Shown here in pieces: positions 8,260-37,969 of a stretch of 50,313 nt of DNA. Origin of the DNA: Lachnospiraceae bacterium (lineage in GTDB: Bacteria > Bacillota > Clostridia > Lachnospirales > Lachnospiraceae). A program made the translations under genes and the position numbers. The stretch is taken from contig JAFXQR010000075.1 in assembly GCA_017526985.1 (NCBI GenBank), forward strand, positions 1-50,313, given 5' to 3'. The first letter of the stretch is position 1, and every line of letters starts with the position of its first letter. The notes beneath the pieces are model-generated. The model was not told where the DNA came from. It ran no database searches and was given only the letters and a program-made list of their open reading frames with translations.

Positions 8260-9180
<921 letters not shown>

Positions 9181-10570: not shown

Positions 10571-10597
10571 TGTCTTCTCCTCCATGTCTTTATAAAA

Positions 10598-12100
10598 CTA
10601 TAGATCTGCAATCGGTCTGCCGCTGGTACATTTGCCGGAACCGCCGCTTTGGAAATACCCCGGTTCCTGATCCAGCCACCACTGTGTATACGGCTTGCTG
10701 GCATGCTCGGAATAGTTCTTGATAAACTCTATGGAATCCAGCGCCTCATCGATCCTTCTTGCGTAGTTGAGTGCGCCCTCGTATCCGATACCAAACTGTT
10801 CATCACCGATCAGCAGTGTGGGGATTCCGAGTTTTGCGCCCCACAGTGTCATTCCGCCGTGTCTTGCCAGGATCAGATCCGGACGGATGCGGTATAACGC
10901 ATTGACCAACTCGAAGGACTGCTTGTTACATACCTGATAATTCTTCACATCTCCGTAGGTCTGTACCGCATGCTGCAACACATCCATTTCCGGATGATCG
11001 CTGTCATATACCGGATCGTGATGGAATACGCTGGCACCCTGCACTTCAAATCCCAGCTCTCTAAGCAGATGGATCAGTGCCTGACCGTGTGCCGCTCCGG
11101 CCATCACATATGCTGTTTTTCCTTTAAATCTTTCCTTCAGCTCTTCGATCTTCGGTACGATATCGCGGTGACCTTCCGCAATGATCTCTTCCGCTACTTC
11201 CGGTTTGCCGAGCACCTCACCGAGAGCTCTTAACCAGCGATCCGTACCTTCCACACCGTAAGCCGGCGGCACCGTGATCTCCGGCACTCCGTAGAGCTGG
11301 CTCAGACCGGCACCCATATAGGTGGAAAGCGACGGGCAGATGTGGATAGTTGCTGCCGCTTCCGAACACTCCTGCAGCTGCTCGATCGTGGAGAAAGGCA
11401 TCAGGTATCTGGTCTCATAGCCGAATCTCTTTACGATCTCGTCGAAAACATGGGAGCCCCAGAAGTTTACGACATTCACATAATTCCCTTTCTTCTTGGG
11501 CGGCTTTACGATATTTCGCAGCACCGTGTGATAAGCCGCATCGAAACCTGTAGTCCATACCTTAGATCGGAAACCGTCGCAGGTACAGGTAGCAACCGGG
11601 ATCCCCAGCTTTTCCGTCAGCTTGTGCGCCGCGCCTTCGATATCCTCACCGATGATACCCGATGCACAGGAAGTGGTGATGAAGATCGCCTTTGGATGTA
11701 CCCTCTCGTATGCTTTTTCCACCGTCTCTTCCAGTTTTTTGATGGCACCGAATACGGTATCTTTTTCCTGAATATTGGTGGAAAAGTATCTTCCGTTGCG
11801 CTCCGGCAGATTTCTGTTTTCCTGCTCAATGCGGTATACAAAATTGAATCCGCAAAAGTCGCCCGCACATCCTACCGGCGCATGATTGACGATCGCTACA
11901 TCCTCGATCATCGACAGCTGGCAGAATGCCTGTCCCGCATTACAACCGAGACACTGGGAAAATCTTCTCTTACTGTCCTTTAACTGTTTGCTGTGGGATT
12001 TTTCCACCAGCTCTTCCGCCGTTCCGGAATAAGCATTGATGGTTCCCAGTCGTTTTTCTCTGATCAACACTGCAGGTTCATCTATGTTGATTGTCGGCAT
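10598..12100 (-). CDS. NifD-like catalytic subunit of the first nitrogenase-like system
   Basis: 500 residues from the ATG at 12100 (GGAGGAAG upstream; the TTG at 12115 is part of that site). All three P-cluster ligand positions are present: C50/C53 in CLGC, C78 in HAPVGCAGD and C145 in TTSCASGIIGED. The cofactor cysteine of nitrogenase (Azotobacter Cys275) has a counterpart, C255, in HICPSLSTYMG. The cofactor histidine (His442) does not: the aligned stretch reads GIPTLLIGDEQFG. Nitrogenase Gln191 and His195 are also replaced (GFRSKVWTTGFD). So it is a cofactor-bearing enzyme with a remodelled site, not an N2-reducing NifD. First gene of the operon D-K-H-B-metN-metI-metQ-unknown-lysR. Candidate MarD. 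Confidence 0.88.
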   Translation of the reverse strand: MPTINIDEPAVLIREKRLGTINAYSGTAEELVEKSHSKQLKDSKRRFSQCLGCNAGQAFCQLSMIEDVAIVNHAPVGCAGDFCGFNFVYRIEQENRNLPERNGRYFSTNIQEKDTVFGAIKKLEETVEKAYERVHPKAIFITTSCASGIIGEDIEGAAHKLTEKLGIPVATCTCDGFRSKVWTTGFDAAYHTVLRNIVKPPKKKGNYVNVVNFWGSHVFDEIVKRFGYETRYLMPFSTIEQLQECSEAAATIHICPSLSTYMGAGLSQLYGVPEITVPPAYGVEGTDRWLRALGEVLGKPEVAEEIIAEGHRDIVPKIEELKERFKGKTAYVMAGAAHGQALIHLLRELGFEVQGASVFHHDPVYDSDHPEMDVLQHAVQTYGDVKNYQVCNKQSFELVNALYRIRPDLILARHGGMTLWGAKLGIPTLLIGDEQFGIGYEGALNYARRIDEALDSIEFIKNYSEHASKPYTQWWLDQEPGYFQSGGSGKCTSGRPIADL

Positions 12101-12120
12101 TTTTTCTTCCTCCAAAATCT

Positions 12121-12135
12121 ACGAAATAATTTCGT
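12121..12135. promoter_or_regulatory. Palindrome upstream of the nitrogenase-like operon
   Basis: ACGAAATAATTTCGT has perfect 7-bp arms around one base, about 21 bases before the D-like start. Its place in the 5' leader suggests an operator or a small RNA hairpin close to the ribosome binding site. I see no convincing -35/-10 pair in the 150 bases upstream, as expected for an activator-dependent (LysR) promoter. Confidence 0.4.
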
Positions 12136-12253
12136 TTTCCATTTGCGTAACAACTGAAATTCACTTTAACATCCGCTTCACATAATGTAAAATTGTCAGA
12201 TTCTATCGGCAGCTATCAATATTTTTTATGGCTGTACCATCTGTTTTTCGGTA

Positions 12254-12280
12254 TAAAAATACGGCCCTGCAAAGGCCGCA
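12254..12280 (-). terminator. Terminator after cymR-like gene
   Basis: On the minus strand CGGCC-TTTGCAG-GGCCG is followed by TATTTTTAT. It ends the metY-SDR-mccB-mccA-cymR operon and separates it from the nitrogenase-like operon, which therefore needs its own promoter within 12101-12250. Confidence 0.7.
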
Positions 12281-12306
12281 TTATAGGATCCGTATATTGC
12301 CGAAAT

Positions 12307-12747
12307 CTATATCACATACAGATCCCAGCCTTCGGATACACCGTTGCGGCACTGCGAAACAAAGTCGGAAAGCGACATTCGGTCCGTATAGTCTTTCAGA
12401 TTACTGTTGATCTCCTGCCAGAAGAAACCGTTGATCACTGAGCGCAGATTTCCCTCACTCTCATCCTTCTCCATTTCTGCCAGAAGTGTGTTGTCCAATG
12501 CATTGAGAACATCCGTCAGTTTCACCTGGTCCGGCTTGCAGGAAAGGACATATCCTCCGCGAAGTCCTTTCTGAGCCGTAATGAACCCCGCCTGCCGCAG
12601 CGGCAACAGGATATGTTCCAGATATTTATGAGAGATATTCTGCCGTTTGGCGATATCGGGCGCGGATACACTCTGTCCGTTTTCGCAATGGATCACGATA
12701 TCCGCAAGCGCGATCAGTCCGTACTCTACTCTGGTCGATACTCTCAT
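12307..12747 (-). CDS. cymR: Rrf2-family transcriptional regulator, CymR-like
   Basis: 146 residues. The winged helix-turn-helix (MRVSTRVEYGLIALADIV...ISHKYLEHILLPLRQAGFITAQKGLRGGYVL) is typical of Rrf2. The three-cysteine Fe-S motif of IscR/NsrR is absent from the region after the wing, which fits CymR. CymR is the cysteine-metabolism repressor of Bacillota, which senses cysteine status through a complex with CysK. It is the last gene of an operon with cystathionine synthase/lyase and MetY. Its best operator candidate is the 17-bp palindrome at four promoters in this window, including the promoter of its own operon at 17399. An active-site type change towards IscR function is unlikely. The identity of the partner CysK is open. 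Confidence 0.8.
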   Translation of the reverse strand: MRVSTRVEYGLIALADIVIHCENGQSVSAPDIAKRQNISHKYLEHILLPLRQAGFITAQKGLRGGYVLSCKPDQVKLTDVLNALDNTLLAEMEKDESEGNLRSVINGFFWQEINSNLKDYTDRMSLSDFVSQCRNGVSEGWDLYVI

Positions 12748-19278: not shown

Positions 19279-20238
19279 TTAAATGATGTAAAACCATTCT
19301 TCGCTCTGTTTGATCTCCTGCGTCACGACCTTGTTATCATAGGTACGGTATTCCATCTCCGGATTCTTGATACTCACTCTGGTATTGGCCGGTACGGAAC
19401 TGGTGATGAAGGTATTGCCGCCGATCACGGAATTCTCCCCGATCACGGTATCCCCGCCCAGTATCGATGCCCCGGCGTAGATCGTTACATTGTCCTCGAT
19501 CGTCGGATGCCGCCGCTTACCGGACAGTTTCTGTCCTCCTCTGGTGGACAGCGCTCCTAAGGTCACGCCCTGATAGATCTTGACATTCTTGCCGATCACC
19601 GCTGTCTCTCCGATGACGATACCGGTACCGTGGTCAATAAAGAAATACTTATCGATCGTTGCTCCCGGATGGATATCGATCCCGGTCTGGGAATGCGCAT
19701 ATTCTGTCATCAGTCGCGGGATCACCGGCACATTCAACAGATACAGTTCATGCGCCAGACGGTAGATGGTGCTGGCCATCAGTCCCGGATACGCCAGGAT
19801 GATCTCTTCATAACAGCCTGCAGCCGGATCCCCGTCGTAAGCTGCCAGCAGATCCGTTTCCACATATTCCCGGATCAGCGGGAAACGCTCAAAGAATGCC
19901 CGGCAGATACGGTAACTCTCGATCCTCCGCTCATCCTCTGTCATGGTCCCGCGCAGTTTGCAAAAGTCCAGCGCCAGATTGATCTGCTTGTTCAGATGAT
20001 AGAAGATATCCTCTATGATCACCGCAAAACTGTTGTTGGGATTGTAGATCTTAAAGGTACGATCCCGAAAATATCCCGGGAATACGATCCGCGCCATATC
20101 ATGGACCAGCTCGTGGATCTCATTCTTATCCGGTTTGTTAAAAATATTGATGCTGTCTATGTTCTTTCCGCCATTAAAGTCCGCCAGTACGCCTTTTACA
20201 AGGTCATTGATCTCTTCTTCTCTAATGATCTCTTTCAT
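19279..20238 (-). CDS. cysE: Serine O-acetyltransferase, EpsC/CysE type
   Basis: 319 residues with an N-terminal helical domain and C-terminal left-handed beta-helix hexapeptide repeats (IHPGATIDKYFFIDHGTGIVIGETAVIGKNVKIYQGV and following). The active-site DHGTG motif is present. It is longer than Bacillus CysE and closer to the anaerobe 'EpsC' form, which has a longer N-terminal region. It makes O-acetylserine from serine and acetyl-CoA, the substrate of CysK and MccA. It is encoded between the desulfurase and the sulfur carrier in the encapsulin operon, so acceptor and sulfur donor are made together. Confidence 0.93.
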   Translation of the reverse strand: MKEIIREEEINDLVKGVLADFNGGKNIDSINIFNKPDKNEIHELVHDMARIVFPGYFRDRTFKIYNPNNSFAVIIEDIFYHLNKQINLALDFCKLRGTMTEDERRIESYRICRAFFERFPLIREYVETDLLAAYDGDPAAGCYEEIILAYPGLMASTIYRLAHELYLLNVPVIPRLMTEYAHSQTGIDIHPGATIDKYFFIDHGTGIVIGETAVIGKNVKIYQGVTLGALSTRGGQKLSGKRRHPTIEDNVTIYAGASILGGDTVIGENSVIGGNTFITSSVPANTRVSIKNPEMEYRTYDNKVVTQEIKQSEEWFYII

Positions 20239-20345
20239 ATCTTATCAACCCTTTGATCGGTTTGTTATTTTCAAAATAAATCACAAAAAATGTTTTCAGA
20301 AAAACCTGCTGTTGCCGGTACTCCCGACAACAACAGGCAAAACCA

Positions 20346-22169
20346 TTATGCAAATGTTTTGAGTACCTTCACCAGCGCATCGATATCGTCCGGTGAATTG
20401 TACAGTGCCAGGGTCGGACGCACGGATCCTTCATAACCGAATCGGCGCAGCACCGGCTGTGCACAGTGATGACCTGTTCTTACGGCGATACCGTAATTAT
20501 CCAGGCGTTTTCCTACTTCATCATCCGAATAGCCATCCAGATGGAAGGACAGTACAGATGCTTTGTTCAGTGCGGTACCGATCAGTGTCAGTCCCGGGAT
20601 GCGTTTCATCTCCTGCATACCGTACTGCAGCAGTTCATGCTCCCAGCGGTATACGCAGGGCATACCGATCTCGGATAAGTAGCTTAATGCAGCACCAAGA
20701 CCTACCGCATCTGCAATGCTTCCGGTACCTGCTTCAAACTTGTTCGGGATCCCGTTGTAGATCGTTCTTTCAAAGGTTACATCCGCGATCATATTACCGC
20801 CGCCATGATACGGCTCTGCTGCTTCCAGCAGTTCCTTCTTGCCATAGACCACGCCGATGCCCGTAGGAGCAAAGATCTTGTGGCCGGAGAAGACGAAGAA
20901 GTCCGCATCCAGCGCCGATACATTGACCGGAATATGCGCTACCGACTGTGCACCGTCGATCAGGATGCGTACTCCATGGCGATGTGCGATGGCGATCATC
21001 TCTTCGATCGGTGTTACCGTACCCAGTACATTGGATACATGCGTCGTTGTAACAAACTTGGTTCTTTTGGTAAATAACTTTTCGTATTCCGACAAAATCA
21101 ACTGACCACTCTCATCACAAGGGATCACCTTGATGACAGCACCGGTCTTTTCTGCGATCAACTGCCACGGCACGATATTGGCATGGTGCTCTAAGATGGA
21201 TACGATGATCTCATCCCCCGGCTGCAGCGTGGGCTTTACATACGCATTTGCCACCAGGTTAATGGCCTCGGTCGTACCTCTGACAAAAATGATCTCTTCC
21301 GAACTCGGTGCCCCGATGAAATCACGCACGATATCTCTTGCATTCTCATACGCGTCGGTGGATCTGGCTGCCAGGGTATGCGCGCCTCTGTGCACATTGG
21401 AATTCTCATGCTCAAAATAATAACTGAGACGGTCGATCACCTGCTTCGGACGCTGTGTCGTCGCGCCATTATCCAGCCATACCAGCGGGTTGCCGTTGAT
21501 ACGCTCTTTCAGGATCGGGAAATCATCCCGGATCTGTGCCAGTGTCTTGCTGCCGATACGGATCGAATCGTTTCTGGTGGTACCGCGCTCTGCAGTGCCT
21601 TCCTTTGTTACCGCATCTCCGCCCTGTAAAGAGGTCGGTACATCAATACGACGGTCATATTCTTCCGCCTGCGTCTTGGACTGTACCTTCGGCGCATAGG
21701 ACTGCGTTGGCGTCGGTGCAACATATGCAAACGGATGCTCCCAGTCAAAGGCATCCCCGTAACCGCTTCCGGCCGCTGCCTGTGCTGTCTGCGCAGCCGT
21801 ATTCACATCTGCGGCATCCGCACCCGGTACATTTGCTTCCGGTACGGCTGCATTGGTCGGTACGGTCGCCTCAGGCGGAACCGTGATAAACGGCAATACA
21901 TTTTCCGCAGGTAAAGTAGACTCTGCAGGGATCGCGACTTCTGCCGGAACGGCATCGGCCGGTACCTCTGTCTCTACCGGCAGGGATGCGCTGGGCAGCA
22001 TTGCCCCCGAAGGAGTGCTCTGCTGCGGCACACTCGCCGATTCCGGAACTGCGGATACGCTGCTTCCGACAAAATCGGGAAACATCGCATTTGCCATAGC
22101 ACTGATCGCGGCGGCACTGGGCAGTCCCAGAGATTCCTCCGTTACGGTGTATGGATTAGTCGTAGTCAT
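20346..22169 (-). CDS. Family 2A encapsulin cargo: SufS-type cysteine desulfurase with long disordered N-terminus
   Basis: 607 residues from the ATG at 22169, which overlaps the shell gene by 14 bases. Residues ~1-205 have no fold-like pattern: they are rich in Pro, Ala, Val and Glu, contain no Cys and have a VP-repeat (EATVPTNAAVPEANVPG). This is the cargo-loading region found in encapsulated desulfurases. Residues ~206-607 are a group II cysteine desulfurase, with PLP lysine in SGHKIFAPTG and catalytic cysteine in RTGHHCAQPV. It releases sulfur from cysteine as persulfide. In the known family 2A systems the shell encloses this enzyme and elemental sulfur accumulates inside. Confidence 0.92.
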   Translation of the reverse strand: MTTTNPYTVTEESLGLPSAAAISAMANAMFPDFVGSSVSAVPESASVPQQSTPSGAMLPSASLPVETEVPADAVPAEVAIPAESTLPAENVLPFITVPPEATVPTNAAVPEANVPGADAADVNTAAQTAQAAAGSGYGDAFDWEHPFAYVAPTPTQSYAPKVQSKTQAEEYDRRIDVPTSLQGGDAVTKEGTAERGTTRNDSIRIGSKTLAQIRDDFPILKERINGNPLVWLDNGATTQRPKQVIDRLSYYFEHENSNVHRGAHTLAARSTDAYENARDIVRDFIGAPSSEEIIFVRGTTEAINLVANAYVKPTLQPGDEIIVSILEHHANIVPWQLIAEKTGAVIKVIPCDESGQLILSEYEKLFTKRTKFVTTTHVSNVLGTVTPIEEMIAIAHRHGVRILIDGAQSVAHIPVNVSALDADFFVFSGHKIFAPTGIGVVYGKKELLEAAEPYHGGGNMIADVTFERTIYNGIPNKFEAGTGSIADAVGLGAALSYLSEIGMPCVYRWEHELLQYGMQEMKRIPGLTLIGTALNKASVLSFHLDGYSDDEVGKRLDNYGIAVRTGHHCAQPVLRRFGYEGSVRPTLALYNSPDDIDALVKVLKTFA

Positions 22170-23112
22170 AGTACTCACCCACTTCCACATCCTCTAATAC
22201 TGCGATAGCGTCATCCGCAAGGATAGCAGCCGAGCAATATAGTGACAGCAGATAAGATGCAACTCCCTTATCATCAATACCACGGAAACGAACGGACAGA
22301 CCTCTGGAATGCTCATTCTTAAGACCTGCCTGGAACAGACCGATAACACCACGCTTTGCTTCACCGGTACGGATCAGCAGGATGTTGGTCTTACCACTCT
22401 GGGAAGTCGGGTTCTTCAGACCGTCTACCAGCAGCTTATCGGTCGGGATGATCGGGATGCCTCTCCAGGTTAAGAAGGTACCGCCTGCGATATTTACCAC
22501 TACAGGAGGAACACCTCTCTTGGTGCACTCTCTTTCAAATGCAGCGATGGCACGCGGATGAGCCAGGAAGAAGGACGGCTCTTTCCAAACCTTGGTGATC
22601 AGCTCGTCCAGATCGTCCGGAGTCGGTGCACCGTTTCTGGTCTGGATTCTCTGGGAATCTGCGATGTTCTTCAGCAGACCGTAATCATCGTTGTTGATCA
22701 GCTGGCTTTCCTGACGCTCACGCAGAGACTCGATGGCCAGGCCAAGCTGTTCCTGTACCTGATCGTACGGTGCGCTGTAAACATCTTCGATCGCCGTATT
22801 TACATTGATGATCGTAGAGATGGAGTTCAGACGATACTCTCTCGGCTCGGTCTCATACTCTACATAGCCATCCGGGATGATGTCGCTCTTCTTGGTCTGG
22901 CTGCACAGCACATCCAGCGGCGTCTCACCTTCCACAACTTTGTTCACACGAAAGATACCGGTCTCCAGTCCCTTAAACTCCAGGAACTTGGTGAGCCACT
23001 TCGGTGTCAGAGCACCATACTGCGGTTTTGTTTTGGTCACATTTGCAAGATTATAAGCCGCTTTTGCGCCCAGTGCGTTGATCACACTTGCCTTTGTTTC
23101 TTCTTTTGCCAT
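22156..23112 (-). CDS. Family 2A encapsulin shell protein (SrpI-like)
   Basis: 318 residues with the HK97-fold shell sequence of family 2 encapsulins: RLNSISTIINVNTAIEDVYS, the VWKEPSFFLAHPRAIAAFERECTKRG region and the C-terminal GLSVRFRGIDDKGVASYLLSLYCSAAILADDAIAVLEDVEVG. There is no cyclic-nucleotide-binding insert, so it belongs to 2A, not 2B. These shells form T=1 particles of about 25 nm. The adjacent, overlapping gene encodes the cysteine desulfurase cargo, which fixes the assignment. Characterised members (SrpI of Synechococcus, the Acinetobacter baumannii shell) respond to sulfur status or hold elemental sulfur. Confidence 0.95.
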   Translation of the reverse strand: MAKEETKASVINALGAKAAYNLANVTKTKPQYGALTPKWLTKFLEFKGLETGIFRVNKVVEGETPLDVLCSQTKKSDIIPDGYVEYETEPREYRLNSISTIINVNTAIEDVYSAPYDQVQEQLGLAIESLRERQESQLINNDDYGLLKNIADSQRIQTRNGAPTPDDLDELITKVWKEPSFFLAHPRAIAAFERECTKRGVPPVVVNIAGGTFLTWRGIPIIPTDKLLVDGLKNPTSQSGKTNILLIRTGEAKRGVIGLFQAGLKNEHSRGLSVRFRGIDDKGVASYLLSLYCSAAILADDAIAVLEDVEVGEYYDYD

Positions 23113-26363: not shown

Positions 26364-26394
26364 GTATCCCTTTCCCGTCTTATCTGATCATCTA

Positions 26395-26465
26395 CGGTAC
26401 AGAGTGGACTCGAACCACCAACTTCAGTCTATGAAAACCTATGCCATTCCAGCGGCCACTGCACC
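26395..26465 (-). other. tRNA-like element in the leader of the encapsulin operon
   Basis: 71 nt fold as a cloverleaf. The acceptor GGTGCAG/CTGTACC has 7 bp with one G-U. The D-stem is GCCG/TGGC. The T-arm GGTGG-TTCGAGT-CCACT has the T-loop consensus. Discriminator is G; no CCA is encoded. The anticodon arm is poor (TAGGT/GACTG: one mismatch and two G-U, T at position 37). Read literally the anticodon is UCA, which would match the stop codon UGA; a shifted reading gives CAU. Since TGA is used as a stop nearby, I take it for a tRNA-derived regulatory or processing element, or a decayed tRNA, not an active suppressor. It ends 31 bases before the sulfhydrylase start. Confidence 0.55.
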
Positions 26466-26474
26466 AGTTATTTT

Positions 26475-26676: not shown

Positions 26677-27618
26677 TTAATTTATACCTTCAGTAAACAA
26701 TGCAGTAGAGTAGTACCGGTCACCGCTGTCCGGCAGGAGCGCTACGATCACCTTGCCCTTATTCTCCGGTTTCTTTGCATGCTGGATCGCAGCATATAAC
26801 GCCGCACCGGACGAAATGCCGACAGAGATTCCTTCTTTCTTGGCCAGTAGTTTAGCTGTATCAAATGCATCCTGGTTCTTCACCTTAAATACCTCGTCAT
26901 ACACTTCTGTATTCAGTACTTCCGGCACAAACCCTGCACCGATCCCCTGAATCTTGTGCGCTCCGGCTCTACCCTCAGAAAGAACCGGTGAATCCGCCGG
27001 TTCCAGCGCGATCACTTTTACATTCGGGTTCTGTTCCTTCAGGTATTCCCCTGTTCCGGTCACGGTACCGCCGGTTCCGACACCGGCAATAAAGATATCC
27101 ACATTACCATCTGTATCTTTCCAGATCTCCGGTCCGGTGGTTGCTTTGTGGATCGCCGGGTTTGCCGGATTATCAAACTGCCCGGGAATAAAACTATCCG
27201 GGATCTCATTCTGTAATTGTTTGGCCTTTTCAATAGCTCCTTTCATCCCCTTGGAACCTTCCGTCAGTACAATTTCCGCGCCATAACTTCTTAAGATACT
27301 TCTGCGTTCCACGCTCATGGTCTCCGGCATAGTCAGGATGATACGATATCCTTTGACTGCCGCGATCGACGCCAAACCGATCCCCGTATTTCCACTGGTG
27401 GGCTCAATGATCACAGAACCCTCCTTTAAAAGTCCTTTATCCTCGGCATCTTCGATCATAGCCTTCGCAATACGATCCTTTACGCTGCCTGCCGGATTAA
27501 AATACTCCAGTTTTACCAGGATCGTCGCTTCCAGTCCCAGATCCTTTTCGATATTGGTAACTTCAACCAACGGTGTATTCCCCACCAGGCCAAGCACACC
27601 CTTATAAATATTCGCCAT
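26677..27618 (-). CDS. cysK: Cysteine synthase (O-acetylserine sulfhydrylase) CysK
   Basis: 313 residues from the ATG at 27618 behind AGGAGG; the longer frame to 27657 lies in the leader. Fold type II PLP enzyme with NPAGSVKDR (K47), TSGNTGIGLA, GVGTGGTVTG and the CysK-specific QGIGAGFVPEVLN segment. It makes cysteine from O-acetylserine and sulfide. In Bacillus and Staphylococcus, CysK is also the partner that lets CymR bind DNA. This enzyme, rather than the MccA-type one next to cymR, is the better candidate for that role. It is monocistronic, with a promoter containing the shared operator. Confidence 0.93.
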   Translation of the reverse strand: MANIYKGVLGLVGNTPLVEVTNIEKDLGLEATILVKLEYFNPAGSVKDRIAKAMIEDAEDKGLLKEGSVIIEPTSGNTGIGLASIAAVKGYRIILTMPETMSVERRSILRSYGAEIVLTEGSKGMKGAIEKAKQLQNEIPDSFIPGQFDNPANPAIHKATTGPEIWKDTDGNVDIFIAGVGTGGTVTGTGEYLKEQNPNVKVIALEPADSPVLSEGRAGAHKIQGIGAGFVPEVLNTEVYDEVFKVKNQDAFDTAKLLAKKEGISVGISSGAALYAAIQHAKKPENKGKVIVALLPDSGDRYYSTALFTEGIN

Positions 27619-27683
27619 TTCTGTATACCTCCTGTAAATTATGATGTTATAACCCAACTGTTCAGAACCTATTCGTATTTTTT

Positions 27684-27790: not shown

Positions 27791-27892
27791 TCAGATGCTG
27801 TATTCCATCTCATAATATTCTTCTGAGTCTTCGAAAAAGTAGTCATAGATCTTCTTTTTATACAGAGCAAATTTATATAATTTCTTTTTCAA
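27791..27892 (-). CDS. Possible 33-residue small protein overlapping mtnN
   Basis: A TTG at 27892, inside the last codons of the nucleosidase gene but in another frame, opens KKKLYKFALYKKKIYDYFF..., a Lys/Tyr-rich peptide with an acidic tail EDSEEYYEMEYSI. The composition looks protein-like and the position suits translational coupling. However, the ribosome binding site is weak and start codon TTG, so I rate it a candidate only. It would be the last gene of the metK/nitrogenase-like region. Confidence 0.3.
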   Translation of the reverse strand: MKKKLYKFALYKKKIYDYFFEDSEEYYEMEYSI

Positions 27893-28577
27893 GATATCCA
27901 ACGATGATTTCCGTCGGTCTAGTCGCCAGTTTTTTTTTGATCAAAAGCTCCTCCTCCTCGTCAGGAGCAGGATTCTCGATTGCTTTTACCGCATCTTCAT
28001 CAGCAAGATCCGAAAATATGCGTATCGCCGCAAACTCTATATCTTTTGCCGTTGCCACCTGAGCTATGGCTGCCGTCTCCATATCAAAAGAAATCGGGTG
28101 ATACTCCGCAATTATGCTTTTTCTTACCGATTCATCATTCAAAAAGAAATCACCGGTAGCAAGTTTACCGACGATATAGTCGAAACCTCTGTTTTTCGCT
28201 TCTTTCGCTAGTCCACGGATAATTTCTTCCGATGTATTATTGATCTTTGGATTATTCTCCTTTTTATATGGCTGAAAATCCGTTTGAATATAACTTTCAC
28301 CGATTGCAACCGTTCCTCTTTTAACCCGTTCCGCAAGTCCGCCCGAAACTCCGATGTTAACAATAAGTTCCGGACAAAACTCCGTTATGAGATCTGCTGT
28401 TCGAAATGCCGCATTTACTTTACCTACTCCAAGCACTTTCACGAGAACATCCATGCCGGCCTTTTTATTTATGTAATGTTCTTCATCTTCCCTGACCCAA
28501 TCGTCTCTGCCGGCAAGATACTCATGAGTGTATTTTGTTTCTTCCGCCATTGCGCTTACAATTGCTACTTTCTTCAT
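27873..28577 (-). CDS. mtnN: 5'-methylthioadenosine/S-adenosylhomocysteine nucleosidase
   Basis: 234 residues from the ATG at 28577 (GGGAGAAG upstream). Nucleoside phosphorylase-fold enzyme with AMAEE at the N-terminus, NIGVSGGLAERVKRG, ATGDFF, the nucleoside-binding DMETAAIAQVA (catalytic Glu) and SDLAD (catalytic Asp). It cleaves adenine from MTA, SAH and 5'-deoxyadenosine. Differences from the textbook enzyme are MET in place of MEG/MEA and an acidic C-terminal insert (ENPAPDEEEELL). It is 80 bases after the NifK-like gene of the second system, which ties that reductase to SAM by-products. Confidence 0.88.
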   Translation of the reverse strand: MKKVAIVSAMAEETKYTHEYLAGRDDWVREDEEHYINKKAGMDVLVKVLGVGKVNAAFRTADLITEFCPELIVNIGVSGGLAERVKRGTVAIGESYIQTDFQPYKKENNPKINNTSEEIIRGLAKEAKNRGFDYIVGKLATGDFFLNDESVRKSIIAEYHPISFDMETAAIAQVATAKDIEFAAIRIFSDLADEDAVKAIENPAPDEEEELLIKKKLATRPTEIIVGYLEKEII

Positions 28578-28657
28578 TTTATCTTCTCCCACGGTGTAAT
28601 ACGGTCAAAACTTTTTTCTCTTTTCACTTGTTCTTTTCATAGTTTTCTCCTCTTCTT

Positions 28658-29998
28658 TCAATAATTTCTGATATATGCCACTAAATTGTTTTTCCGATTC
28701 CATTCGTATTTCTTTACAGCATAAACGATATCCTCGATCAATCCGATCTCCCCAACCGTTCCTATGGTCGTTTTATTTAAGATGGTACGATCATATATGG
28801 GAAACGATATATCTAAGGCCGCATTGCCTCTTTTCTCTGCAAACGCCTTTTCAAAAGAACTTCCGATGATGAATTCCGTTTTGGATGCCTTTAGAATCTC
28901 TTCGATCTCTTTCTGATCTGAAGATATATATACTTTTGATACAATCCCTTCAATATCATCTGTATAATCTGCCAAATGATCTTCATCATGTTTTAAAACG
29001 TCGGTAAGTACAACACTCCTGATCTCCGTTCCGAATGTACTTTTGAGCAGTTTTGCCACCCGGATCACAGTTTCCTCATCTCCTACGATTGCCGCATCCT
29101 TTCCGATATCATAATCAAGCAGATCCGTAAGTATCCTTGCCCTATAATTTTCTTCGTATTTTTTTTCTTTCGCCAAAAACTGTTCTGCCTTTTCTTTATT
29201 CACGGAAACCAGTTCCGAAATCTTCTCGATCAACTCCTTTTCATCTTTATAGTCTGCCGGAAGTGTCGGAAAAAGCAATTTTGGGATTCCGAATTTGGTT
29301 TCCAGAACACTTGCCGGGAGCTCTCCCCATCTTCCGAAAACGATACTGAGTTTTGCATTTTGCGCCTTGATCAGATCCTCTACTCCGCCGTTATCGCCAA
29401 AAAAAACATTTGACCTTAATCCCACTGCTTTCAGAATTTTGGAGATCTCATCCAGATTCCCTTTCCAAAAAGGATCTTTCCATGGGATGATCCCAAATAT
29501 ATTTACCAGTGTTTCATCTGTTTTTCTCTCGTTTTTTTTGACTTCATAGACTGACCTGAGTATATCTGCAAGAACATGCTCATAACCGTAATGTGCGCCA
29601 CCATTAAAACCTGCTACAAGTGTATTAACAACTGGTTCTCCCTGCTCTACGATTTCCCTCGTCATGGCCTCTACATCATCACCTACCATGGCAGATTCGC
29701 AACTGTTTAAAATTACATACAAATCTCCGTTTACGATCTTGATCGTGTTCTTGATCTGCTCTCTGAGCCGTGATGCTCCACCGAAGATCACATGTCTTTC
29801 CTGTACCGTTGTCCCCGGTGCGTTATATCCACCGGTTAATCCCCTTCCTTCTCCGGTAGAAAGTGCGGACAAATAATTGATCACTCCACAGCCCGCATTG
29901 GCATGTATGATCGGTACAACTCCCCTGATCTCCTGAACTGTCTGCAGCGCCCCATGCAAAGCACATCCGTTCCTGGGATTTTTAATTACTCCTGACAT
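28658..29998 (-). CDS. NifK-like subunit of the second, SAM-linked nitrogenase-like system
   Basis: 446 residues, component 1 fold. It has exactly three cysteines, all at cluster-ligand positions: C12 (GCALHGAL), C37 (NAGCGVI) and C100 (LNSCESAMVGDD). This matches the K-subunit contribution to a P-cluster, or the three-cysteine half of the [4Fe-4S] cluster in protochlorophyllide reductase. The start overlaps the D-like stop by one base (TGATG). The region is visibly richer in A+T than its flanks, suggesting separate acquisition. Substrate unknown. Neighbours metK and mtnN point to SAM-derived thioethers or sulfonium compounds. Confidence 0.85.
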   Translation of the reverse strand: MSGVIKNPRNGCALHGALQTVQEIRGVVPIIHANAGCGVINYLSALSTGEGRGLTGGYNAPGTTVQERHVIFGGASRLREQIKNTIKIVNGDLYVILNSCESAMVGDDVEAMTREIVEQGEPVVNTLVAGFNGGAHYGYEHVLADILRSVYEVKKNERKTDETLVNIFGIIPWKDPFWKGNLDEISKILKAVGLRSNVFFGDNGGVEDLIKAQNAKLSIVFGRWGELPASVLETKFGIPKLLFPTLPADYKDEKELIEKISELVSVNKEKAEQFLAKEKKYEENYRARILTDLLDYDIGKDAAIVGDEETVIRVAKLLKSTFGTEIRSVVLTDVLKHDEDHLADYTDDIEGIVSKVYISSDQKEIEEILKASKTEFIIGSSFEKAFAEKRGNAALDISFPIYDRTILNKTTIGTVGEIGLIEDIVYAVKKYEWNRKNNLVAYIRNY

Positions 29999-31392
29999 CA
30001 GCTCACCTCCTGTTTCACATACCAGTTTCCGCTTTTCTTCTTCCAGGAATCTTTGTATATGCTTTGTCTCTCATATAATCTCTTTAATATCACCGCTTTC
30101 CTGATTGCTTTTATAATGCTGATCACTCCCAAAAATCCATAAGTTACCGTATTTTTCAGCGATACAACAGCTACCCCCTCCGCTATGGCAAATTCACCTC
30201 CGCATTCTTCGGTAACATAGAAGTCTGCACCGCTTTTGGCAAGCGCATTGGCCTTTTCGAAATTTTGACCGTTTCCGATCATGGCAATCGTACTTTTTGC
30301 CAGAAAATCAAGTTTCTTTAACTGCTTTCTGTTCGCCAGATCAATAAATCCGGACGAAAACCCGATTACCTCACCGCTGTATTTCACAAACATTTTTGCA
30401 TATGCCGGTATCTTACTTAATGTTGCATCGATAAATATTTTCTTTGAAGCCAATAGGGCCGGGTCATAGACCTCTGTGATCTTCTCTCGTTGTTTATCTA
30501 TATATGCAGCCGTTCTCTCCTCCACCCCGAGAAACCTGCTAAGCCGGATAAGGAAATTTTCCGTTTCTCTATAGCCGATCGGCACTTCTGTCTCGAGATA
30601 AGGAACACCGAATACATCTCTTAATTCCTCTGCAAGGTACTCTCCCTCTTCCGGATTTAAAACAATCGAAGCTTTGGCGCTGCTTGCCCGTTGTATCTCT
30701 CTGATGTTTGAAAACGCGGGAATCACCTGATATTTTATATCCAGCTCTTTGAGGATCTCCGCTATAGCAGCCACATCATCAGCTTTTTCAGAAAAGGAGA
30801 TCACATTTATAAAATCTCCTTTTTCCGTTGGTTCTATATTTACCAGATATTTCAAAAGACTGTGCGTTACGATATCATATCCGGTAACCGGTGTTTTTGT
30901 CTTAAATCCATCGGTATAGATGCTTATGACCGGTATCCCTATTTCCTCCTCCATTTCAAAGATCACCGAGTTGATGTCATCGTTATTGATCGCCACAACA
31001 GGTGTACCTATAATAAAAATTGCCTTTGGGTGTTTCTCTTCATAAGCTCTTAAAATTGCCTCCCGAAGCTTATCATCTCCACCAAGGATGGTATCCCTTT
31101 CCGCAAGATTGGTCGAATACCAGACATATTCCGGATATGGATTTCTTTCTATTCCTATCCCGGCGCATCCAATAGCTCCGTTGACAATGATCACGGCATC
31201 CTCAATCTTTGCTAATACCTCAAAAGCGTTAATGATCTCATCTTTGTATATCTGTGCAAACGTTCTGATCTTCTGTTTGATCTCTGCTCCGGATGCTTCG
31301 TCGATCAAGGCTTCGAGAGTACCGTGATAATTGCTTAATGCACTTAAACGTTTTTCTCTGGTAAGAACTCTTCTTTCTTCCACAAAACTCAT
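29998..31392 (-). CDS. Degenerate NifD-like subunit of the second nitrogenase-like system
   Basis: 464 residues, homologous along its length to the NifD-like protein at 10598: both begin with a REKRL...Y.GT motif and share HPKAIFI. It has only two cysteines. C76 (GAIGCAG) corresponds to nitrogenase Cys88. The Cys62 position is replaced in FAQIYKDE, the Cys154 position is P131 (IIGTPVV), and the cofactor cysteine region reads IVLNPEEG. With the K-like partner, the dimer thus offers 3+1 cysteines: enough for one [4Fe-4S] cluster, none for a FeMo-co-like cofactor. That is the dark-operative protochlorophyllide reductase plan. It should reduce a bound organic molecule directly. Confidence 0.82.
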   Translation of the reverse strand: MSFVEERRVLTREKRLSALSNYHGTLEALIDEASGAEIKQKIRTFAQIYKDEIINAFEVLAKIEDAVIIVNGAIGCAGIGIERNPYPEYVWYSTNLAERDTILGGDDKLREAILRAYEEKHPKAIFIIGTPVVAINNDDINSVIFEMEEEIGIPVISIYTDGFKTKTPVTGYDIVTHSLLKYLVNIEPTEKGDFINVISFSEKADDVAAIAEILKELDIKYQVIPAFSNIREIQRASSAKASIVLNPEEGEYLAEELRDVFGVPYLETEVPIGYRETENFLIRLSRFLGVEERTAAYIDKQREKITEVYDPALLASKKIFIDATLSKIPAYAKMFVKYSGEVIGFSSGFIDLANRKQLKKLDFLAKSTIAMIGNGQNFEKANALAKSGADFYVTEECGGEFAIAEGVAVVSLKNTVTYGFLGVISIIKAIRKAVILKRLYERQSIYKDSWKKKSGNWYVKQEVS

Positions 31393-31412
31393 CGATCCGT
31401 CCTCCTCTGAAG

Positions 31413-32288
31413 TCAGATTGCCTCGGCAACACCCACGACACCGTTCTCAATATCATAGATCCGGTCTCCCCAGCTTCTTGCCCAGTCTCTTAATTCTGCC
31501 GCTCCCAAAGGATTCGGTACTACCAGATTTTCATTCTCAGCGATATATTTGGCCAGATTCCGATAGATATCGGCTTGTGCGCTGTCCGGCTTAGCTTCTA
31601 TCACAGTTTTTCCGTATAGTTCGCTCTGCTGTACATCCAGGGAACGGTTTACATATCCGGCAATCGATGTACCTGTCTTCGTCACAAAATCATCCACAAT
31701 CTCTCTGTGATATCCCGGTTTCATGCTGTTGGCAATGACTCCGCCGAGTTTTGCTCCACCGGTCGGCGCATATTTATTGATTGCTTTAAACAGGTTATTG
31801 GCAGCATAAAGTGCCATAAAGTCTGATGAACTCACCACATATGCTCTGTCAGTGATCCCATCCCGGATCGGTACTGCAAAACCTCCGCATACCACATCTC
31901 CCAGAACGTCATAAAGCACATAATCCGGCTTAAATTCTTCAAACAGTCTGAGTTCCTGCAGGACATTCACAGCCGCATTGATCCCTCTGCCGGCACATCC
32001 CACACCGGGCACCGGTCCACCGGATTCGATACAAAGTACACCACCAAATCCCTTTACGGAAATATCGTCCAGATGGATCTTATTTCCTTCCCGCAAACTG
32101 TCCAATACTGTCGGAAGGTAATTATTCCCACGCAAGGTATTGGTCGAATCACTCTTTGGATCACAACCAATCTGGACCACCTTATATCCGGCTTCTGCCA
32201 GTGCCGCACTGATATTAGATGTCGTTGTAGACTTTCCTATCCCTCCTTTCCCATAGATTGCTATATGTTTGCCTATTTTTTTTCCCAT
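31413..32288 (-). CDS. NifH-like reductase of the second nitrogenase-like system
   Basis: 291 residues with [19 protein letters not shown] and [11 protein letters not shown], so the ATP site and the cluster cysteines are intact. The N-terminus (MGKKIGKHIAIYG) is slightly longer than that of the paralogue at 8260. First gene of H-D-K-mtnN, with a 20-base gap to the D-like gene. An intact reductase beside a stripped-down catalytic pair argues that the system is functional rather than decaying. Electron donor unknown, probably ferredoxin. Confidence 0.92.
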   Translation of the reverse strand: MGKKIGKHIAIYGKGGIGKSTTTSNISAALAEAGYKVVQIGCDPKSDSTNTLRGNNYLPTVLDSLREGNKIHLDDISVKGFGGVLCIESGGPVPGVGCAGRGINAAVNVLQELRLFEEFKPDYVLYDVLGDVVCGGFAVPIRDGITDRAYVVSSSDFMALYAANNLFKAINKYAPTGGAKLGGVIANSMKPGYHREIVDDFVTKTGTSIAGYVNRSLDVQQSELYGKTVIEAKPDSAQADIYRNLAKYIAENENLVVPNPLGAAELRDWARSWGDRIYDIENGVVGVAEAI

Positions 32289-32331
32289 CTCCTGGTCCCC
32301 TCCGTTATTCTCCTTTCTGTAAAATCTTTAT

Positions 32332-32381
32332 AAAAAGGAGGTTCAAAATCTCGGCTAATGGAACCTCGATCTCAAACCTCC
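32332..32381 (-). terminator. Terminator or attenuator between metK-yezD and the nifH-like gene
   Basis: Minus strand: GGAGGTT (32375-32381) or the later GAGGTTC (32361-32367) can each pair with the same 3' arm GAACCTCC (32337-32344), followed by TTTTTAT. Two alternative 5' arms competing for one 3' arm could be a regulated stop. It would set how much metK transcription continues into the reductase genes. Confidence 0.6.
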
Positions 32382-32396
32382 AGTTTATCTGGTCAG

Positions 32397-32543
32397 TTAT
32401 CTAATTCTTATTTTTTCATTCTTATCGATCTGTATGACCTTTCCATCCTGTATCACTATGCTGATGGAACCATATCGGATCTCGTCAATATACTTTTTTA
32501 TCGTCCGCAGTTCTTCTTCGGACACGCCCTTTTCCTGTGCCAT
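32397..32543 (-). CDS. yezD: YezD-family (DUF2292) small protein
   Basis: 48 residues, too short for usual ORF lists. The ATG at 32543 follows GGAGG (32549-32553). It starts MAQEKGVSEEELRTIKKYI and has the family core RYGSISIVIQDGKVIQIDKNEK, typical of DUF2292/YezD. Members are found next to sulfur assimilation and cysteine genes in Bacillota; the function is unknown. It lies 17 bases after metK and before the nitrogenase-like genes. Confidence 0.85.
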   Translation of the reverse strand: MAQEKGVSEEELRTIKKYIDEIRYGSISIVIQDGKVIQIDKNEKIRIR

Positions 32544-32560
32544 ATCAACCTCCGTTTTTA

Positions 32561-33742
32561 TCACAGATAACTCTTGATCGCATCCACTTTATCCAGATGT
32601 TCCCAAGTCAGATCGATATCCGTTCTTCCGAAATGTCCGTAAGCTGCAGTCTGTTTATAGATCGGTCGTCTCAGATCCAGGGCATCGATGATGGCTGCCG
32701 GCCGCAGATCAAATACCTTATTGATGATATTAACAATCTTTTCCTCTGCGATCTTTCCGGTTCCGAAGGTTTCTACAGCTATAGAGACCGGTTTTGCTAC
32801 ACCAATAGCATATGCGAGTTCCACTTCGATCTTATCTGCCACGCCGGCTGCAACCAGATTCTTTGCAACCCATCTGGCTGCATAAGCTGCGGATCGATCT
32901 ACCTTGGTAGGATCCTTTCCTGAAAACGCGCCGCCTCCGTGTCTTCCGGTTCCACCATAGGTATCCACAATGATCTTACGGCCTGTCAGGCCCGAATCAC
33001 CCTGCGGTCCACCGATCACGAATCGTCCGGTAGGATTCACGTAGTAGATCGTATCTTTGTCCAGCAGTTCTGCCGGGATCACCGGTTTGATCACATATTC
33101 GATCACATCCTTACGGATCTGCTCCAGTGTCACATCCGCGGCATGCTGCGTAGAAATAACGATCGTATGGATACGCTTGACCGTATGTCCGTCATCGCCA
33201 AATTCTACGGTCACCTGGCTCTTTCCGTCCGGCCGCAGATAAGAAAGCGTCCCATCTTTTCTTACTTTGGTCAACTGTCTTGTCAAACGATGAGCAAACG
33301 AGATTGCAGGCGGAAGGTATTCCGGCGTTTCATTCGTTGCATATCCGAAGATGATGCCCTGATCACCGGCGCCGGTTCCGTAATCCTTCGTCTCGCCTTC
33401 CTGCTTGGATTCAAAAGCCTTATCCACACCAAGCGCGATATCGGCGGACTGTTCATCGATCGATGTAAGTACGGCAATGGACTTAGCATTATAACCATCC
33501 ACATTGTTGACATATCCGATCTCCTCGATCGTATCTCTGGCTATCTTTGCAATATCTACATATGCCTTTGTCGTGATCTCACCAACGATCAGCGCGATGC
33601 CGGTTGCTACTGTTGTTTCTGCTGCTACTCTGGAGTATGGATCCTGCCGGATCAATTCATCCAGGATCGCATCTGAAATCTGGTCTGCGATCTTGTCCGG
33701 ATGTCCTTCTGTTACCGATTCTGATGTAAATAGTTTTCCCAT
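32561..33742 (-). CDS. metK: S-adenosylmethionine synthetase
   Basis: 393 residues with all MetK motifs: [24 protein letters not shown] at the N-terminus, [12 protein letters not shown], and [27 protein letters not shown]. It makes SAM from methionine and ATP. It has its own promoter (33820-33848) and a leader of about 70 bases that is too short for a SAM-I riboswitch; I see none. Cotranscription with yezD, possibly on into the nitrogenase-like set and mtnN, would link SAM synthesis to recycling of its by-products. Confidence 0.97.
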
Positions 33743-33819
33743 AGTCTTTCTCCTTTATCTGTTTATTAATCAGTTTGTGTGAATTTCTTTGTGAAGTGAA
33801 TAATTCTGATCTGAGAAAG

Positions 33820-33848
33820 ACTATAACATTGATTTTTCAGTTTGTGAA
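33820..33848 (-). promoter_or_regulatory. metK promoter
   Basis: -35 TTCACA (33843-33848), 17-bp spacer, -10 TATAGT (33820-33825). The ATG is about 75 bases downstream, behind AAAGGAG. It does not contain the 17-bp palindrome found at the cysteine-related promoters. Confidence 0.65.
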
Positions 33849-36213: not shown

Positions 36214-37140
36214 TTATTCTCCGTACAGCAGCTCATAGGCTTCGCGGTAAGCCTCTCCCCAGTCCGCATTTGGTTTCAGACCAAATAACTCCTTAGAAAG
36301 CAGATAATACTTTCCTTCGGATACTGCCGTAAGTGTATCCCAGCCCGGATTGGATGTAAACAGTTCCTCAAAACTTGCCAGCGCCTTTTCCTCGTTTCCT
36401 CTCGGTACTACGAAGATATAATCCGGGTCAGCAGCCAGGATGGCTTCCGTTGACAGTTCATCAAAGGAACTGTTATCCTCCGCAATATTTGTCAATCCAA
36501 GATTGTTAAAGATCTCGCTGGCAAAATAATCATTCTTTTCCACCTTCGCTTTGGTCGCGGAAACATGAAGCAGAAGATAAGTTCCCTGTGCAGATTCCGG
36601 AACCTGTGCGATCACATCTTCTATCTGCGTCCGAACATTTATGACATACTCCTTATATTTTTCCGGATGGCCGGAATAATCCGTTAACTGCTTCATTACA
36701 GAATCGTAGTCAGCAAAACCATCAATATTGGTATAATACACCGGAATCCCGATCCCTTCTGCCGTTTCCCCCAGTGCCTTCTGGGAAGGATCCGTAGAAA
36801 ATACGATCAGCAGATCCGGAGAAAGGGCCGTGATCGCTTCCAAGCTCACATTGTCCATATCGCCCAGTGAAACCGCATCCGCATTCAGGCCTTCCAGATC
36901 CATGGCATCCTCAGATGTCGCAACAAGCTCACCGCCTGCCAGCAGCCAGAGTTCTGCGTTTGATTCGGACAATGCGATCACCCTGTCTGCCTGCGCAGGT
37001 TCTGCTTGCTCAGGAACATCTTCCGTTACGATCGTTGTCCTGCCGCAGCCGGCACATAAAATCCCTAAGGCCAGGATTGTAATGATCGTTTTCTTTATTC
37101 TTTTAATCTTCCTTTCGGTATGCTTTCCAGACGATCTCAT
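36214..37140 (-). CDS. FecB/BtuF-type substrate-binding lipoprotein
   Basis: 308 residues. A basic N-terminus and hydrophobic segment end in the lipobox LCAGC (Cys32), followed by a two-lobed type III binding protein with a bridging helix: ADRVIALSESNAELWLLAGG, SLEAITALSPDLLIVF, ILAADPDYIFVV. It starts at 37140 behind AAGGAG, inside the end of the sulfite reductase gene, and overlaps it by 38 bases. The ligand is unknown. The class includes iron-siderophore, heme and cobalamin binders. Confidence 0.9.
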   Translation of the reverse strand: MRSSGKHTERKIKRIKKTIITILALGILCAGCGRTTIVTEDVPEQAEPAQADRVIALSESNAELWLLAGGELVATSEDAMDLEGLNADAVSLGDMDNVSLEAITALSPDLLIVFSTDPSQKALGETAEGIGIPVYYTNIDGFADYDSVMKQLTDYSGHPEKYKEYVINVRTQIEDVIAQVPESAQGTYLLLHVSATKAKVEKNDYFASEIFNNLGLTNIAEDNSSFDELSTEAILAADPDYIFVVPRGNEEKALASFEELFTSNPGWDTLTAVSEGKYYLLSKELFGLKPNADWGEAYREAYELLYGE

Positions 37141-37969
37141 CTAACTTCTCCTTCCCTACACGATCAATGGTAAATTTAAATCGTTCGCTGGGATTTGCAT
37201 TTTCACGGAAGAAATTCAGTGCCGCATCACATACCGCAAACAGCGTCTCCTTATCCTCGATAAACGGAACGATGAGTTCCCCCTTATTGATCTGATTTCC
37301 AAACAGACCGCCAAAGCTGATCAGATATCCCGGAACGGTATCATAAGCATCCGTAGGACATGAGAGAGCGCATCTGCCGCAGAAATTGCATTTATCTCTT
37401 TCGATCGAGATCACGCCATCCCCGATCGAAACCGCGCCTTCCCGGCAGACTTTTTTGCACACGCCGCAATTGATACACTTCTCTTTGATCCAGGATACTC
37501 TTACCCCACCTTTGATACCGATATCATTTTCTTCTGCCTTCAGACAGTTATTCTGACATCCTGTCACACCAAATTTGAACTTATGCGGAAGTTCCTGCCC
37601 AAAATACCGCTCATTCAGTTCCTTTGCCAGTTCTTCCGTTTCAATGCAGCCATTCGGGCATACCGCATCCCCCTGACAGGCTGTGATGGTGCGCACTCTG
37701 GGTCCGCATACACCCGGAGCTACGCCGCCTTCCGCCAGCGCATCCTTTACCTTATCCACATCTTCCAGTTTGATATAGGGGATTTCAATGCTTTGCCTGC
37801 TGGTCAGATGGACATAGCCATGACCATACTGTTTTGCTACTTCCGTGATCACAGCCAGTTGTTCCGCACTCACCTGACCGCCCACGATCGACAAACGCAG
37901 AGAAAACCGGTCTTTCTGTCTCTGTTTCATGAACCCGCCTTTTTTCAGTGTTGCATAATCGTTTGCCAT
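37103..37969 (-). CDS. Short siroheme sulfite reductase with 2x[4Fe-4S] ferredoxin domain
   Basis: 288 residues. Nitrite/sulfite reductase half-domains surround the siroheme-[4Fe-4S] ligands C98-x5-C104 and C138-x3-C142 (ACQGDAVC, GCQNNC). A ferredoxin domain follows, with C165/168/171/175 and C194/197/200/204. It is half the size of CysI and resembles the small, anaerobe-type enzymes (AsrC/Fsr-like). It reduces the sulfite produced by AprAB to sulfide, with electrons through its own clusters. No AsrA/AsrB partners are encoded here. It lies 81 bases after cysN; siroheme synthesis is encoded in the same operon. Confidence 0.9.
   Translation of the reverse strand: MANDYATLKKGGFMKQRQKDRFSLRLSIVGGQVSAEQLAVITEVAKQYGHGYVHLTSRQSIEIPYIKLEDVDKVKDALAEGGVAPGVCGPRVRTITACQGDAVCPNGCIETEELAKELNERYFGQELPHKFKFGVTGCQNNCLKAEENDIGIKGGVRVSWIKEKCINCGVCKKVCREGAVSIGDGVISIERDKCNFCGRCALSCPTDAYDTVPGYLISFGGLFGNQINKGELIVPFIEDKETLFAVCDAALNFFRENANPSERFKFTIDRVGKEKLDEIVWKAYRKED

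Follow-up and report, generated by a model that had tools for sequence, protein, structure and literature searches.

What a nitrogenase-like enzyme reduces when its genes sit between two genes of S-adenosylmethionine (SAM) metabolism is the question raised by contig JAFXQR010000075.1 of a Lachnospiraceae bacterium (assembly GCA_017526985.1; 50,313 nucleotides, the whole of which is called the window here). The window encodes an H-like reductase component and a D-like and a K-like subunit (H-D-K), with a SAM synthetase gene, metK, on one side and a nucleosidase gene, mtnN, on the other. A first-pass annotation, made from the sequence, had described a reductase unlike any characterised enzyme, with a SAM-derived sulfur compound as its likely substrate. 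Comparison with relatives and with published systems leads us instead to propose, with moderate confidence, that the H-D-K set serves sulfur assimilation in a gut-type bacterium as a nitrogenase-like enzyme of the isethionate-reductase type (Isr-like), most likely cleaving a sulfonate such as isethionate. It is from the genes themselves, their residues, their clade and their neighbourhood that we infer the reaction, the substrate, the cluster and the roles of metK and mtnN. If correct, the proposal would mean that rumen Lachnospiraceae and Treponema use nitrogenase cousins to strip sulfur from sulfonates.

Coordinates and family matches confirmed the order metK, yezD, H, D, K, mtnN that had been annotated on one strand, with cysK following, all on the minus strand:

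32561-33742, minus strand: metK, the second (locus) SAM synthetase (TIGR01034, 576 bits)
32397-32543, minus strand: yezD (DUF2292), an OscA-like small protein (PF10055, E 9.9e-18; NF033785 OscA below cut-off)
31413-32288, minus strand: H-like reductase component, IsrH-like (Fer4_NifH, E 1.3e-94)
29998-31392, minus strand: D-like subunit, IsrD-like (Oxidored_nitro, E 2e-57)
28658-29998, minus strand: K-like subunit, IsrK-like (Oxidored_nitro, E 2.7e-63)
27873-28592, minus strand: mtnN-like nucleosidase, a divergent second copy (PNP_UDP_1, PF01048, E 6.5e-31; probable ATG at 28577)
26677-27657, minus strand: cysK, next downstream, in the same sulfur island (TIGR01139, 456 bits)

The cysteine inventory of the two subunits was assessed first against NifDK of nitrogenase and MarDK of methylthio-alkane reductase (Mar). 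As the first-pass annotation had it, the K-like subunit has exactly three cysteines (12, 37 and 100), which align with the P-cluster cysteines of NifK and MarK. The D-like subunit has two (C76 and C397) where a single one had been counted, C76 being, as claimed, the only one at a P-cluster position: it falls at NifD-C88/MarD-C91, with Asp51 at C62/C66, Pro131 at C154/C158, an Asn at C275/C270 and a Glu aligned at the place of MarD H429. This pattern was examined in a residue table of 41 pairs, made up of the window and 40 loci of its relatives, designated type A, from which five loci without a complete adjacent pair (L077, L088, L097, L101 and L102) were omitted. The columns of MarK C32, C56 and C121 hold Cys in 41/41 type-A pairs, and the MarD C91, C66 and C158 columns hold Cys, Asp and Pro, respectively, again in 41/41 each. 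The MarD C270 column, which corresponds to Cys275, a ligand of the iron-molybdenum cofactor (FeMoco), holds Asn in 32 pairs, Asp in 4 and Ser in 5, and Cys in none, so that the absence of the cofactor cysteine, first noticed in the window, extends to the whole set. No pair has His in the H429 column (0/41, one being a gap), and no His was found in the alignment at NifD His columns 450/459 of R. etli. By comparison, the 18 pairs on the Mar side (type B, R. rubrum Mar included) have Cys at the six P-cluster positions and at C270 in 18/18; His429 is a weak marker in this alignment, because it is aligned in only 12 of these 18 (5 gaps, 1 Arg), and C270 is a strong one. The three K cysteines together with D-C76 match the residues that we take to bind the K-side half of the P-cluster, and a single [4Fe-4S] is therefore the natural reading. 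Judged by these residues, the D/K pair is probably a reductase without a large cofactor and with one [4Fe-4S] per pair, in agreement with the initial proposal.

Membership in the characterised families was then considered. NifDK was rejected, the counterparts of FeMoco Cys275 and His442 being absent. The solved structure nearest to D, and also to K, is that of Mar (PDB 9d9u, 9fmg), which likewise cuts C-S bonds. In MarD, however, C66, C91 and C158 belong to a full P-cluster and C270 and H429 bind [Fe8S9C], and the Mar system includes a NifB-like maturase (PMC12552129); the residues of the D-like subunit at these five positions are Asp, Cys, Pro, Asn and Glu. With two of the six P-cluster cysteines and both cofactor ligands of MarDK replaced, membership in Mar was rejected too. 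Protochlorophyllide reductase (DPOR; BchLNB) offers a likeness of another kind, a single-cluster architecture in which one [4Fe-4S] is held between both subunits without a large cofactor (PMC11423573, PMC12552129). Its cluster is bound by three Cys of the NifD-like subunit and an Asp of the NifK-like one (PMC11423573), which is the reverse of the arrangement found here, with three Cys on the NifK-like side and one on the NifD-like side; the half-site in the window is a mirror image of that in DPOR, and DPOR membership was rejected on this count. A tetrapyrrole-reducing enzyme, protochlorophyllide-reductase-like or of the F430 type, could draw on the shared architecture and on a siroheme-type gene nearby, but given the reversed ligand split (an argument from residues, Bch and Cfb standing outside our tree) and a siroheme-type gene that fits a sulfite reductase, we consider such an enzyme extremely improbable.

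The published system that shares the whole inventory is the isethionate reductase IsrBHDK of Rhodobacter capsulatus, of which the IsrB component belongs to the radical SAM proteins (Morimoto et al. 2024, PMC11423573). IsrD is reported to have one P-cluster Cys (Cys74), Pro/Ser at the C154 position and no FeMoco ligands, and to form a separate clade in group IV, near Mar but distinct from it and from Nif; IsrK has three Cys, at 12, 37 and 99 (PMC11423573). The window shares these traits: its H-D-K belongs to group IV, D contributes a single P-cluster Cys and K three, the C154 position is occupied by Pro, and FeMoco ligands are lacking. The statement that no characterised enzyme resembles this locus had therefore to be given up, since IsrDK of R. 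capsulatus has the same cysteine inventory: the combination of three K cysteines and one D cysteine is already published (PMC11423573), the linkage to metK and mtnN apart. In the same paper, isrBHDK plus ssuCAB was the minimal set and conferred isethionate-dependent growth on R. sphaeroides; in R. capsulatus, neither IsrB nor SsuCAB was dispensable for growth on isethionate, and the role of the radical SAM protein was termed unclear. The window's relatives have the same kind of partners (radical SAM protein, SsuABC). Unlike Isr as published, the locus has a separate metK and mtnN, and the window copy comes without radical SAM and transporter genes. The terms metK, Lachnospir, Butyrivibrio, Clostridi and Treponema are absent from the main text of PMC11423573, and literature searches among open-licence PMC papers listed none that treats this linkage, judged from titles and the first lines of abstracts. 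IsrBHDK models have already been used on mouse gut genomes (PMC12330013).

In order to place the window among its relatives, genome contigs were scanned with a profile built from a four-sequence K alignment, which yielded 46 loci (L035-L037 were removed as duplicates of L075, L079 and L099). Hosts comprise Pseudobutyrivibrio and other Lachnospiraceae, Clostridiales, Treponema/Spirochaetaceae, Synergistaceae and one 'Deltaproteobacteria' record. Within the window's family, a K homologue (E ≤ 1e-20) is present in 44 of 299 genomes, the window genome included, and among these 299 genomes only the window's and three others (52, 48 and 38%) have at least 38% K identity over most of its length; a 146-residue K fragment in genome G295 is 45% identical. 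Where H1-type genes were seen among the type-A loci, window H is 71-97% identical to them. The comparison of the D/K pair with known families that the first-pass annotation had called for was carried through for Mar and Nif, with Bch, Cfb and Nfa references outside the trees, and it sets the pair in a clade of its own: in a careful tree of 33 of the 62 concatenated D/K pairs, 20 type-A pairs form one clade with support 100/100, apart from Mar, Mar-side and Nif pairs. A quick tree of 55 pairs, from which five near-identical type-A and two type-B pairs had been dropped, gave the same result (36 type A, SH-aLRT 100). At the margins of the set, locus L103 of Parablautia (8473-11161) encodes a very distant nitrogenase-like D/K (23-24%) with an adjoining NifB-like gene. 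It too has three K Cys and one D Cys, at the C88 position, with Gly and Pro at the other positions, and is perhaps a second group with this ligand distribution. In locus L077 of Butyrivibrio fibrisolvens 16/4 (10001-11433), the K frame is split into two pieces, with a stop in the first.

The gene neighbourhood was surveyed in 45 type-A loci (the 46 less L103, which is distant and has Mar-side labels), and compared with 12 control stretches from the same family that carry a Mar-side (type-B) H-D-K and for which longer stretches were retrieved. L101 was kept among the 45 in spite of a K identity of only 28% and a D frame that fell short of what the residue table required. Many loci are cut by contig ends, 25 having at least 5 kb on both sides. 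Neighbours were labelled by their BLAST best matches to reference proteins, a few being checked with Pfam/NCBIfam: three SsuA proteins scored over the TIGR01728 cut-off, and three radical SAM proteins reached 382-439 bits against the cut-off of 125 for variant_rSAM NF045502. Across the 45 loci, metK was found in 35, the radical SAM gene in 37, SsuA in 33, SsuB in 32, SsuC in 34, yezD in 25, mtnN in 19, PNPOx in 15, MatE in 14 and SDR (short-chain dehydrogenase/reductase) in 5. The conservation of neighbours, the lack of which was to refute the first-pass reading, holds for metK in the well-flanked loci (23/25) and less so for mtnN (15/25), with yezD in 19; in these same 25 loci the radical SAM gene is present in 24, SsuA in 23, SsuB in 22 and SsuC in 23. 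The 12 controls have no metK, no NF045502-type radical SAM gene and no mtnN; yezD occurs in 3, SsuA in 1, SsuB in 4, SsuC in 3 and cysK in 9, and a near-full-length NifB-like radical SAM gene in 10. The linkage of metK to this H-D-K (35/45 loci versus 0/12 controls) is not due to chance.

The metK and mtnN copies at these loci are separate from those elsewhere in the genomes. The window genome has a second metK on contig C142, 69% identical to the locus metK, and at least two metK matches over cut-off were found in 24 of 30 genomes (one in four, none in two; hand count). When 22 locus copies of metK and 19 others are placed in one tree, 2 label changes separate the two groups, against a mean of 13.9 for shuffled labels; L093, whose genome has a single metK, was left out of this tree, and its inclusion (23 locus rows) also gave 2 changes. 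Likewise, the window genome has a canonical mtnN on contig C187, to which the locus mtnN is 27% identical, and 10 locus copies split from 17 canonical ones with 1 change and support 100, in a tree for which the reading frame was picked by similarity and of which an earlier version had two canonical rows on very long branches. Scores of the locus mtnN against TIGR01704 (68.9-70.7 bits) fall under the cut-off of 73.8, but it keeps the motifs around the residues that we take to be catalytic. MtnN-type enzymes accept 5'-deoxyadenosine. Radical SAM enzymes release 5'-deoxyadenosine as a by-product, are inhibited by it and need it recycled or disposed of (PMC8102628).

The link to SAM metabolism noticed at first pass is thus real and recurrent, and it admits two readings. 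The substrate might be a SAM-derived sulfur compound (methylthio-nucleoside, methylthioribose or a sulfonium), with metK acting upstream and mtnN downstream in its pathway, as had been suggested from the window; the recurrence of both genes as separate copies and the lack of a visible sulfonate transporter in the window speak for it. SsuABC-type transporter genes and a radical SAM protein nevertheless recur across the relatives, and the thioether-cleaving Mar has a full P-cluster and [Fe8S9C] (PMC12552129), the ligands of which are absent here, which leaves a SAM-derived substrate improbable in our estimate. Because most loci carry SsuABC-type genes together with a radical SAM protein, SAM is better regarded as the co-substrate of the latter, and a sulfonate is favored as the substrate. 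The simplest reading of the sequences is then that metK and mtnN would serve the radical SAM step, by supply and clean-up, respectively.

An Isr-like enzyme at this locus could operate as follows. The H component, with ATP and one [4Fe-4S], would hand low-potential electrons to the D/K pair, in which C12, C37 and C100 of K and C76 of D would bind the single [4Fe-4S]. With the help of a radical SAM protein, the complex would cut the C-S bond of a small sulfonate and release sulfite. In the relatives, a sulfonate transporter of the SsuABC type and the variant radical SAM protein would take part. The SAM used by the latter would come from the separate metK, and its by-product 5'-deoxyadenosine would be cleared by the separate nucleosidase of mtnN type. 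Sulfite-reductase-like and CysK/MetY-like enzymes of the surrounding island would turn sulfite into cysteine and homocysteine, and the released sulfite could be a substrate of the following product:

37103-37969, minus strand: sulfite-reductase-like protein (NIR_SIR, E 2.7e-31; best NCBIfam match sulfite_red_C, 136 bits, under its cut-off of 324)

Several observations weigh against an Isr-like assignment. In the window genome (220 contigs, 92.48% completeness), NF045502 radical SAM proteins gave 0 matches at E ≤ 0.001, and no SsuA was found over cut-off, the two weaker matches scoring 105 and 49 bits. Arg is reported at the NifD-C62 position of Isr, as opposed to Asp in 41/41 type-A pairs, a difference that depends on the alignment; an Arg (Arg43) lies 8 residues upstream of Asp51 and is invariant in 23/23 rows of a D alignment, and the discrepancy may be an alignment matter. 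The likeness to Isr itself is drawn from published residue descriptions, R. capsulatus IsrDK and IsrB being outside the tree and alignments. Half of the controls are shorter than the loci (6/12 with 5 kb on both sides). Finally, the role given to the nucleosidase cannot be taken for granted, since the cyanobacterium studied in PMC8102628 cleaves 5'-deoxyadenosine via a phosphorylase.

Because searches of the window genome failed to find IsrB and SsuCAB, both required in R. capsulatus, the window copy is not classed as a complete Isr. It is a putative Isr-like variant, for which Isr fits best as a working model, that has lost, or never had, the adjoining radical SAM and transporter cassette. 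The same absence of NF045502 radical SAM and SsuA matches over cut-off, with mtnN and cysK coming straight after K, would also suit an orphan core that has lost its cassette and is now decaying or carrying out another reduction without a radical SAM protein. Yet H, D and K are intact open frames, and all residues invariant across the 23-row D alignment are kept in window D; at 92.48% completeness, a missing contig could hold the partner, and the genome of L087 also has its radical SAM gene on a different contig from H-D-K. An orphan core is accordingly judged unlikely, and the Isr-like reading is retained for the window.

The nearest relative of the window copy is L081 (Lachnospiraceae RGIG5994, sheep omasum). 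Compared in 150-base steps between 33900 and 31801, the two sequences are 97-100% identical; no mismatch occurs between 32300 and 31783, a point midway in H at which identity falls abruptly to about 70% or lower. Past this break, L081 has its own H 3' part, D, K, SsuA, radical SAM and SsuB genes. The same sharp drop at 31783 is seen against L088. Another contig of the L081 genome (L121) contains 174 bp (1722-1895) that reproduce the 3' end of a window-type K exactly, just upstream of mtnN, and 8,970 bases of this second contig are collinear with the window at 97.4%. The break at 31783 is a probable allelic cassette replacement, in which, on the simplest reading, the L081 lineage once had a window-type K before mtnN and swapped most of H-D-K for another allele with a radical SAM cassette; the reverse direction, a transfer of the downstream part, is possible. 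Were the contig a chimera of two strains joined inside H, the metK-H-D-K linkage would be an artefact, and the fall from 100% to about 70% identity against both L081 and L088, together with a break in H that was seen in no second genome, is what such a join would produce. A misleading chimera is made less likely by the fact that both sides of the break match the L081 genome and the window-type K-mtnN junction, the 174-bp stretch before mtnN with some 9 kb of collinear sequence following, exists there; the metK-H-D-K linkage is moreover found in other taxa, and we hold a chimera to be highly unlikely. Between its contig start and the K stretch, L121 also encodes a 532-residue protein (82-1680) with several rhodanese-like stretches.

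The radical SAM partner is widespread in the relatives, with an NF045502 protein over cut-off in 43 of 46 genomes (those of L088, L097 and the outlier L103 being the exceptions). Its motif is CX8CX2C in 45 of 47 proteins and CX3CX2C in none; the two exceptions are L078, where the central Cys is missing, and L096, with CX9CX2C. No solved relative of this protein was found at E ≤ 0.1, and it is from position only that we infer the NF045502 proteins to be IsrB orthologues. Of 47 genomes searched, 44 have exactly one K match (E ≤ 1e-70), but the 43 genomes with any radical SAM match over cut-off have 1 to 7 of them, 22 having two or more (hand count; a few partial, and two pieces on two contigs of genome G320 taken as one gene). 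The highest number, seven (one partial), belongs to Treponema genome G323 (L082), all on the contig of its single H-D-K. Ten loci have more than one radical SAM gene near SsuA, and in nine of them (L062 and L064 being near copies) two different SsuA genes, each paired with one radical SAM gene, surround one H-D-K; in the tenth, L084, one SsuA is common to both. Over the radical SAM-SsuA pairs (33 of 42 after removal of near copies), radical SAM distance correlates with SsuA distance (Spearman 0.38, 0/2000 shuffles as high) and less with K distance (Spearman 0.13; partial value for radical SAM-SsuA 0.38). This co-variation supports the existence of cassettes, and substrate specificity may be hypothesised from it, but it is weaker than it appears, because adjacent genes move together and linked transfer gives the same pattern.

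These observations allow a bolder proposal, which we advance tentatively and do not favor: a modular desulfonation platform, in which one H-D-K would serve interchangeable cassettes, each made of a CX8CX2C radical SAM protein and its own sulfonate-binding protein, and the window would be the bare core for cassette swapping. The radical SAM protein would set the substrate and spend one SAM per turnover, which would be why the locus is equipped with a SAM synthetase and a 5'-deoxyadenosine-clearing nucleosidase of its own. A separate metK and nucleosidase beside the radical SAM gene, found in 0/12 controls, suggest that SAM is consumed in turnover. On the modular proposal, IsrB would be a catalytic partner and not a maturase, unlike the NifB-like MarB, which is assumed to act like NifB (PMC12552129), because metK and mtnN are absent from the 12 Mar-side controls. 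Whichever applies, the company of metK and mtnN makes the role of the Isr radical SAM partner testable.

The remainder of the 50.3-kb contig is a large sulfur-assimilation island with CysN-like, transporter, sulfite-reductase-like, siroheme-type, cysK and metY-like genes, several of these names having been read from sequence and part only matched to a family library. At 19279-23112 lies a family 2A encapsulin shell gene (NF041162, 491 bits, cut-off 380), adjoined by a cysteine desulfurase cargo gene (NF041166, 791 bits, just under the cut-off of 800) and by a cysE-like gene named from sequence. Between cysK and the metY-like gene, at 26394-26466, is a tRNA with anticodon TCA, called as a selenocysteine tRNA; no SelB over cut-off was found in the assembled window genome. 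A second nitrogenase-like set occupies 4246-12747, with an Rrf2 regulator, D-like, K-like and H-like genes and a NifX-NifB fusion radical SAM protein, and is followed by metNIQ-like transporter genes (named from sequence). The closest solved protein to its D- and K-like products is MarDK (E 9.1e-127 and 1.4e-119), and in this second pair (9236-12115) all six P-cluster Cys and a counterpart of C270 are present; the set is probably a methylthio-alkane reductase system. The one sulfur island carries two different nitrogenase cousins.

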